Positions 13,285-14,743 of a stretch of DNA of 64,000 bases are shown one piece after another. A program made the translations under genes and the position numbers. A model generated the notes under the pieces. That model saw nothing but the letters and a program-made list of their open reading frames with translations, searched no databases and was not told the origin of the DNA. This DNA is from Nocardioides sp. (lineage in GTDB: Bacteria; Actinomycetota; Actinomycetes; Propionibacteriales; Nocardioidaceae), in NCBI RefSeq assembly GCF_024509035.1, contig NZ_JANINT010000010.1, positions 1 through 64,000 on the forward strand. Direction: 5' to 3'. Position 1 is the stretch's first letter, and every line of letters begins with the position of its first letter.

Positions 13285-13398
13285 GGCGCAATGATTCTTG
13301 CCTTGCCTCGGCCGCGGTCTGCGGTCCTGGCCACGCGGGACCACCCCTTGCTCACGGACGAGTTGGTCGGGGGGTACTGATGGATCGGGGGCTCGTTG

Positions 13399-14154
13399 AT
13401 GGACCAGGTGAACCTGGGGCCGCGACATCGCATGCCGCATGAGCGCCTGCACGCCGTGCTGGACGCGGCGGCAGTCCTGCAGGTGCGCCGCAGCGAGCTC
13501 GCCTCGGCACTCGAGCGAGGCCAGGCCTGCGGGGCATGGGTGGTCGCTCGGGGCCTCTCGGCCGTCAACGACTGGATACGTGAGGACATCAAGGGCTGGC
13601 GCGACCTGCTATCGGTGCGTCCTTCGGCGACGGTGGCCGAGCTCAGGGTCTCCGTCCCGTACAACCGGCAACTGGTGGAGAACGGCCTCCGCATGGTGAG
13701 CCTGTTCGACTGGTACGGCCTCGACCCGGCCTCGCGACAGCTCCTCGCCGGGGAGCAGCTCGGGGACTACCGCCTGGGGGTGGCGCCCGTCCAGATGAAG
13801 ATCGTGGACCGCCGCAACGTGCTCCTCCAGGGGCCGTTTGTCGATGGTGAGATGACCCTGATGGTGGTCACTGCGTCGGATTGTATGGCGGCGGCGTGGC
13901 AGTACTGGCACGCGGCGTTGGCAGGGTGCTACCCGGCGGCCGAAGAGCGACGGGACCTGCGGCAGCTCACCCACCGCCAGCGCCAGGTCGCGGCTCTGCT
14001 TGCGGAGGATGCCCGTGACGAGGTGATCGCAGAGACGCTCGGCGTGAGCGTCCGCACCGTGCGGGCGGACGTTGCGCGCCTCATGGACGCGCTGGGTGTC
14101 CGGTCCCGGTTCGCCGCCGGCGCGCGTTTCGCGGAGCTCAGCGGCGAGCGCTGA
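13399..14154 (+). CDS. LuxR-type regulator with central VDRR effector domain (paralogue 3)
   Basis: 251 residues from ATG 13399 (the track uses the TTG just before it), after a 114-bp gap from paralogue 2 that contains a candidate promoter. It is the most divergent of the three: N-terminal LGPRHRMPHERLHAVLDAAAVLQ, central MKIVDRRNVLLQGP, C-terminal LTHRQRQVAALLAEDARDEVIAETLGVSVRTVRADVARLMDALG. The recognition helix (SVRTVRADVA) is the same as in the other two, so all three may bind the same site. A TTGCA-N6-TGCAA palindrome starts 15 bp after its stop codon. Confidence 0.9.
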   Translation: MDQVNLGPRHRMPHERLHAVLDAAAVLQVRRSELASALERGQACGAWVVARGLSAVNDWIREDIKGWRDLLSVRPSATVAELRVSVPYNRQLVENGLRMVSLFDWYGLDPASRQLLAGEQLGDYRLGVAPVQMKIVDRRNVLLQGPFVDGEMTLMVVTASDCMAAAWQYWHAALAGCYPAAEERRDLRQLTHRQRQVAALLAEDARDEVIAETLGVSVRTVRADVARLMDALGVRSRFAAGARFAELSGER

Positions 14155-14168
14155 CCCAAGGGGCCCGG

Positions 14169-14184
14169 TTGCAGGTTCCTGCAA
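14169..14184. promoter_or_regulatory. palindromic operator candidate, site 1 (TTGCA-N6-TGCAA)
   Basis: TTGCA GGTTCC TGCAA, part of the longer perfect palindrome GTTGCAG-GTTC-CTGCAAC. The half-sites and 6-bp spacer are the same as in site 2. Size and symmetry suit a dimeric LuxR-type helix-turn-helix. Confidence 0.6.
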
Positions 14185-14287
14185 CAGGCGCGACGACGTG
14201 GCTGGCCGCGCCCTAGGCTCCAGGCCGGGTCGGGGCTGACTGCCCTCGATCGCGTGCCGGGCTGCCACGGGGGACAGTCCGGATGCG

Positions 14288-14317
14288 GCTCCCGCTCCCT
14301 GATCCGGGTGCGGGAGC
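14288..14317 (+). terminator. hairpin in the peptide-gene leader
   Basis: GCTCCCGC pairs with GCGGGAGC across a 14-nt loop. It could end transcription from the three regulators, or act as an attenuator between site 1 and the peptide gene. No T-tract. Confidence 0.5.
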
Positions 14318-14365
14318 TCGGCCCACGTGGGGGCCGCCCGTCCCGTGATTCATGCATGCAAGCCG

Positions 14366-14381
14366 TTGCAGAAATGTGCAA
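14366..14381. promoter_or_regulatory. palindromic operator candidate, site 2 (TTGCA-N6-TGCAA)
   Basis: TTGCA GAAATG TGCAA in an AT-rich stretch about 106 bp before the peptide start codon. A further TGCAA half-site lies at 14357. Same half-sites and spacing as site 1, 197 bp apart. Confidence 0.6.
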
Positions 14382-14486
14382 TGCACAATTTTGAGGCGGT
14401 CGTTTCTTCGCGTGCGGACGCCTCGCGCCAGGACAATCGTCGCACCGGGTCTTCCGTGGGACCCGCGTAGAAGGTGGAGAGGGAAC

Positions 14487-14621
14487 ATGAACATTGCACG
14501 TAAGGTCGCCGTCGCCGCTATCACCGCGACGCTGAGCTTCGGCCTTCTGGGGATCTCGGCCCCGGCGCACGCCGACAGCAGCTGGGGCATCGGCCGCCCC
14601 GGTCCCGGCGGGGGTCGCTAA
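14487..14621 (+). CDS. secreted small peptide precursor, candidate signalling peptide
   Basis: 44 codons from ATG 14487, supported by GGTGGAGAGGGAAC just upstream; the track's longer ORF from 14352 lacks such a site. The product has a textbook signal peptide (basic NIARK, hydrophobic VAVAAITATLSFGLLGISA, then APAHA). Cleavage after AHA would release DSSWGIGRPGPGGGR, 15 residues rich in Gly, Pro and Arg with one Trp and no Cys. It lies between three LuxR-type regulators upstream and a convergent related regulator downstream, with palindromic sites in its leader. Most likely an exported pheromone or other bioactive peptide; no protease or maturation enzyme is encoded nearby. The role is inferred, the coding call is strong. 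Confidence 0.8.
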   Translation: MNIARKVAVAAITATLSFGLLGISAPAHADSSWGIGRPGPGGGR

Positions 14622-14627
14622 CAGCTC

Positions 14628-14698
14628 GGTCGAGCCGGGGACCCAACTCACCCCCCACTTGTTCGGTCCCAGTGCCACCCCCCCGGCCCGGCTCGACC
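14628..14698. repeat. long-range inverted repeat after the peptide gene
   Basis: GGTCGAGCCGGG at 14628-14639 is the perfect reverse complement of CCCGGCTCGACC at 14687-14698, with a C-rich 47-nt loop. It directly precedes the strong terminator at 14703 and may stabilise the 3' end of the short peptide mRNA. Confidence 0.55.
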
Positions 14699-14702
14699 AC
14701 CA

Positions 14703-14743
14703 TGACGAAGGGCAGTGACGCAAAGCGTCACTGCCCTTCGTCA
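14703..14743. terminator. strong bidirectional hairpin between peptide gene and convergent regulator
   Basis: Perfect 19-bp stem (TGACGAAGGGCAGTGACGC and its complement) with loop AAA, located between the two convergent genes. Confidence 0.88.

Follow-up and report, generated by a model that had tools for sequence, protein, structure and literature searches.

Two rare palindromes beside a secreted-peptide gene in Nocardioides belong to two adjacent regulatory units, one of which probably resembles a peptide-pheromone circuit

The palindrome TTGCA-N6-TGCAA occurs twice in the 64,000-nt stretch of Nocardioides DNA analyzed here (the window), at 14169-14184 (site 1, spacer GGTTCC) and at 14366-14381 (site 2, spacer GAAATG). 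The two copies belong to two separate, adjacent regulatory units. Unit A comprises three LuxR/GerE-type regulators, R1 to R3, followed by site 1; unit B comprises site 2, a gene for a short secreted peptide, and a convergent regulator that we call RightReg (Table 1). The interpretation that we consider probable is that these are two related neighbors, with unit B a one-component circuit of the peptide-pheromone kind that uses a new receptor family, and site 1 a paralogous operator. A sequence-only reading of the same DNA had treated the palindromes as one regulatory arrangement. Its view that the sites are regulatory holds, but its view that they form one unit does not, since site 2 goes with the peptide gene and RightReg.

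Table 1. Features of the two units, in window coordinates.
Feature	Coordinates	Strand	Basis
R1, LuxR/GerE-type regulator, 255 aa	11744..12511	+	GerE 5.7e-08; SVRTVRADVA helix
R2, LuxR/GerE-type regulator, 258 aa	12508..13284	+	GerE 1.7e-07
R3, LuxR/GerE-type regulator, 252 aa, listed with a TTG start	13396..14154	+	GerE 1.9e-08
Site 1, TTGCAGG-TT-CCTGCAA, single 7-2-7 palindrome, proposed R-unit operator	14169..14184	+	Place in relatives
Predicted promoter of the site-1 transcript: -35-like GCGACG (14190-14195), -10 TAGGCT (14214-14219)	14190..14219	+	Same geometry in relatives
CGGGGGA-loop hairpin of the predicted site-1 transcript	14257..14282	+	Loop conservation at R loci
Site 2 as first described, TTGCAGAAATGTGCAA	14366..14381	+	Motif search of the window
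Full 29-bp operator including site 2, TGCA-N6-TGCA-A-TGCA-N6-TGAG	14367..14395	+	Conservation at peptide loci
Predicted -10 box of the peptide gene, GACAAT; predicted transcription start ~14444	14432..14437	+	Conserved offset from operator
Peptide gene, MNIARKVAVAAITATLSFGLLGISAPAHADSSWGIGRPGPGGGR, 44 aa, predicted Sec-type leader and DSSWG tail	14487..14621	+	Candidates at related loci
Conserved C-rich stem-loop element, 3' region of the peptide mRNA	14628..14698	+	Covariation; fold z -4.6
19-bp perfect inverted repeat	14703..14743		Window sequence
RightReg, convergent HTH regulator, ~340 aa	14770..15792	-	Spread in family; weak domain matches

The two sites were the sole matches to the motif in the window, even when one mismatch was allowed, confirming the earlier observation of a pair with differing spacers that is unmatched elsewhere in this DNA. 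Shuffled versions of the window gave an expectation of 0.15 sites, and two were reached in 1 of 100 shuffles. The whole genome (4.75 Mb in 453 contigs) contains a third copy only at G000:C124:4222, making three where base composition predicts ~0.5 (0.54); a reversed control pattern had zero copies genome-wide. Among 200 genomes of the genus, the exact 16-mer TTGCAGGWWCCTGCAA was present in 20, at one copy each, with ~0.13 copies expected overall and none for the control. Comparing coordinates with those from the R, RightReg and operator searches placed 14 of these perfect copies in peptide promoters, five just 3' of an R gene, and one at a HAD-linked small-RNA locus (G063). Counted genome-wide, then, the motif has a single further copy in its own genome, and every perfect 16-mer copy in the 200 genus genomes lies at a peptide, R or small-RNA place. 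These data strongly support the palindromes as putative DNA switch sites that are regulatory, rare and tied to regulator or peptide loci. It is scarcely credible that they are chance or leftover sequences devoid of function: the motif is short and has a third genomic copy, but this reading is already contradicted by the conservation tests, namely the rarity of the motif, its near-exclusive places over 200 genomes, the fixed spacing and the controls, and a conserved operator locus also holds the third copy.

A 29-bp operator, TGCA-N6-TGCA-N-TGCA-N6-TG[AC][GA], has site 2 as its left half. We scored the 300 nt upstream of each candidate peptide for four TGCA half-sites at offsets 0, 10, 15 and 25; 82 of 87 peptide loci reached at least 13 of 16, compared with 0.3% of shuffled stretches, and a good operator was absent at the other five. 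The operator lies ~120 nt from the ATG at most peptide loci, including those without R1-R3. Column conservation across 77 operator-aligned loci identified a -10-like box at offset 64-69, [CG]A[CG]A[CA]T, and no conserved -35. The fixed offset of the -10 box puts the operator centre at about -62 from the predicted transcription start, which, with no good -35, would fit the position of a class I activator. The palindromes had been described as flanking the leader of the peptide gene; site 2 in fact lies upstream of that gene's own predicted -10. The notion that site 2 is itself part of a -35/-10 was dropped, as the -10 was found at its fixed offset downstream. The operator pattern was detected in 104 of 121 genus genomes, with 4 matches for the control. 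It occurred nowhere in the genome in 5 of the 6 genomes lacking RightReg versus 12 of the 115 possessing it (Fisher p 1.7e-4), a co-loss that in part represents the loss of one locus.

The peptide gene also occurs where R1-R3 do not. A search with the stretch 3' of the peptide stop retrieved ten genus genomes, in six of which (L033, L034, L035, L037, L038, L039) the peptide gene has no adjacent R1-R3; in the four of these that read as the window does, the peptide gene has a tRNA-Ser immediately before it. R1-R3 therefore look like an insertion, placed after tRNA-Ser and before the peptide gene, and what accompanies the peptide throughout is the convergent RightReg. In L004 and L005, the first relatives found, site 1 is retained, as are the peptide gene and the near-invariant stretch 3' of its stop; the exact site-2 motif is kept in L005, and L004 has CTGCA for TTGCA. 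The proposal that the palindromes are one matched set bound by R1-R3 is not supported: the operator of which site 2 forms half has four half-sites and is kept, with the peptide gene and with RightReg, which the sequence-only reading did not mention, in genomes without R1-R3. In one alternative model, R1-R3 would occupy the two palindromes as a pair and so govern the peptide gene, for instance by looping over the 197 bp between the sites. In its favor are the common TGCA-N6-TGCA core, the identical R1-R3 recognition helices, and the retention of both sites in L005, L009 and L010, but it appears improbable: site 2 and its operator are found in most genus genomes without R genes, site 1 occurs beside R genes without the peptide and has its own promoter, and the inter-site spacing varies from 197 nt in the window to 176 in L005 and 153 nt in L009.

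A candidate short secreted peptide was present at 87 of the 90 RightReg loci read. The leaders, judged by eye, have a basic N-terminus, a hydrophobic core and an AxA site, and at their ends the peptides share D[TS]xW, mostly with a following G (35 occurrences of DTSWG and 18 of DSSWG). Two to four repeats of this unit are common; at least two D[TS]xW units were counted at seventeen loci, with clear tandem repeats of DTGWNGT (four copies, L116), DTTWGFK (three, L106) and KDSGW (three, L123). Many tails (L051, L052, L075, L082 and others) have a CGGxC-type cysteine pair after DTSWG, which may form a disulfide ring. The peptide might instead serve as a small antimicrobial or structural molecule, made under the regulator's control, and not as a signal. 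That alternative suits a short, secreted peptide with variable tails and some paired cysteines (e.g., DTSWGCGGYCR); however, what is invariant is a D[TS]xW(G) unit of four or five residues, frequently repeated in tandem and beside one conserved regulator, and the interval between the peptide gene and RightReg showed no modification, immunity or export gene. We judge it unlikely, and favor a signaling role.

The C-rich stem-loop that the peptide mRNA carries in its 3' region is conserved as a structure. In an alignment of 33 sequences the outer helix was 100% paired, a percentage inflated by the choice of sequences partly for outer-helix formation, and 6 of its 9 pairs showed two-sided changes; the inner hairpin, which was not used in choosing, was 80% paired, with two-sided changes at 5 of 9 pairs. 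The covariation score was 0.276, compared with 0.133 for shuffled alignments and at most 0.113 when slid. An Rfam scan of the element and the leader returned no match above cut-off. The element shares with 6C RNA (RF01066) its C-runs in loops and its actinobacterial host, and differs in being nested and in the 3' region of an mRNA; 6C RNA was rejected as an identity, with no match above the Rfam gathering score in the window element, its relatives or the whole genome. The inverted repeat that follows is probably a terminator common to the two convergent genes, the peptide gene and RightReg, which are ~150 nt apart.

RightReg was found in 246 of 345 family genomes, in 8 genera and almost always in single copy. 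Its domain matches (HTH_23, DUF7436, TbsP_N, GerE) are weak; Pfam and NCBIfam scans identified no known peptide-binding domain and no TPR family, and a sequence search of the PDB found no relative among solved structures. An AlphaFold model built from three sequences was poor (pLDDT 46), with a confident N-terminal winged helix. We propose RightReg as a candidate peptide sensor and activator acting at the site-2 operator. It could instead repress the peptide and protease genes through this operator, with the peptide relieving repression, given that a single convergent regulator and a conserved operator do not fix the mode of action from sequence. We give this little credence, as the operator centre at ~-62 is upstream of the -10 and of any -35, and with no conserved -35 activation is the expected mode. 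Homologues of RightReg also occur in another actinobacterial family, probably Streptomyces (L153-L156, L160, L163, L164), in multi-copy clusters that adjoin secreted peptides in which D[ST][GS]W is repeated 2-6 times; the same TGCA operator was absent from these loci.

Across the genus genomes the operator recurs in other places: beside a HAD-type gene, and upstream of genes for secreted metalloproteases, both M10-like (matrixin-type) and M4 (thermolysin-type). In the window's own genome, an operator with one mismatch lies ~120 nt before the gene for a secreted metalloprotease of the M4 (thermolysin) type (G000:C146:28377-28405; L189), and the third TTGCA-N6-TGCAA copy sits at the HAD locus beside another one-mismatch operator (G000:C124:4222-4298; L003, L188). 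C-runs are conserved in the HAD-gene stretch, where no conserved peptide is evident, and the orthologous positions of other genomes retain both operator and C-runs (CAGTCCCCCCACATC); we regard this C-rich locus as a candidate small RNA. Searching the own genome at two mismatches yielded noise, with the control exceeding the signal. A further one-mismatch operator (G000:C18:3011-3037; L187) has a response-regulator/PAS gene on one side and, on the other, a short reading frame that resembles a membrane protein.

From this arrangement we infer a sequence of export, processing, import, sensing, binding and activation. Cutting of a Sec-exported precursor would yield a D[TS]xW(G) peptide, which would be taken up and then sensed by RightReg. 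RightReg would in turn activate, from the 29-bp operator containing site 2, the peptide gene itself, the secreted metalloproteases and the C-rich small-RNA locus. R1-R3 would form a side branch that acts at site 1 to drive a short transcript whose hairpin has a G-rich loop; via the common TGCA-N6-TGCA core they may also contact site 2, a cross-binding that is possible because the half-site is shared. More tentatively, and with considerable doubt, the locus may exemplify a widespread actinobacterial pheromone system in which precursors with D[TS]xW repeats are sensed by receptors of a new non-TPR family, and in which an operator of four TGCA half-sites controls exoproteases and a C-rich small RNA. 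The inserted paralogous regulators of some species would produce a G-loop RNA able to pair with C-rich loops, thereby tuning the circuit.

The nearest analogy for the peptide/RightReg circuit, which may work in a similar way, is with the RRNPP systems of Firmicutes, in which a short Sec-type propeptide, as the peptide here is predicted to be, is encoded beside a DNA-binding regulator and intragenic signal duplication is also known (PMC10075063). The 44-aa peptide and ~340-aa RightReg fall within the ranges used to define those systems (propeptide of 10-100 aa, receptor of 250-500 aa; PMC10075063). RightReg differs in having a DUF7436/PLD-like middle and a LuxR-like C-terminal helix-turn-helix, and in its actinobacterial host; the locus was not filed under RRNPP because its receptor is without tetratricopeptide repeats. 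LuxR/GerE regulators with lux-box-type operators resemble unit A in the palindromic site near -50 and the GerE domain of R1-R3; the differences are the core, TGCA-N6-TGCA, and the RightReg operator, with its four half-sites at ~-62. Acyl-homoserine-lactone LuxR signaling was rejected, as the domain scan of R1-R3 and RightReg found no autoinducer-binding domain. TrmB/PLD-like and TbsP-type regulators share with RightReg weak Pfam matches in the middle domain and the confidently modeled N-terminal winged helix, whereas the RightReg matches fall below curated cut-offs and its gene is linked to a peptide gene. A literature search for the peptides or the motif, with subscription papers and preprints outside its scope, returned no paper naming them, and the peptide-signaling system of this locus is apparently undescribed. 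Actinobacterial signals are typically small molecules made by enzymes, and oligopeptide signals are the rule in Firmicutes (PMC10075063). With a near-core locus that has a repeat-bearing secreted peptide, one regulator, a sharp operator and candidate exoprotease targets, peptide signaling in actinobacteria becomes open to direct test: the sequence itself supplies the predicted ligand (DSSWG/DTSWG-like), the promoter, the operator and the reporter genes.

Site 1 is best read as the single operator of the R unit, putatively paralogous to the site-2 operator. The GerE domains of R1-R3 scored 31-34 bits against a curated cut-off of 23.5, and the near-identical recognition helices reported earlier were borne out, with SVRTVRADVA common to all three. 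R relatives are present in 19 of 200 genus genomes. In 15 of these 19 a TTGCAGGnnCCTGCAA-like site lies just 3' of the R gene, at some loci without a peptide, and the exact 16-mer occurs at five R genes. A hexamer with GAC in its middle was found at a constant distance 3' of site 1 at the ten loci for which it was recorded. These results support the suggestion of an activator-like role for site 1 in connection with R1-R3: elsewhere too it lies just 3' of R-type genes and is followed by a fixed -35/-10. Two details of that suggestion need amendment. TAGGCT had been said to lack a good -35, and a weak one, GCGACG, is present at an 18-nt spacing and in the same place in relatives. The distance of 49 bp from the centre of site 1 is correct for the likely transcription start at 14226, but the middle of TAGGCT is ~40 bp away. 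R3 and RightReg align at 28% over 118 aa (E 2e-6) and are, by this measure, distant paralogues; with this paralogy and the common TTGCAGGWWCCTGCAA sites, shared half-sites are therefore expected, and cross-talk between R and RightReg sites is plausible. The CGGGGGA loop in the window is complementary to the C-runs of the peptide mRNA 3' element, a low-information complementarity that makes pairing between G-loop and C-loop RNAs a matter of speculation. Among 16 R loci, 12 have a hairpin with this loop 3' of site 1, compared with ~6% per region in shuffles; the automated count was 10 of 16, having picked site 2 in L009 and L010, both of which have the loop after site 1 by separate reading.
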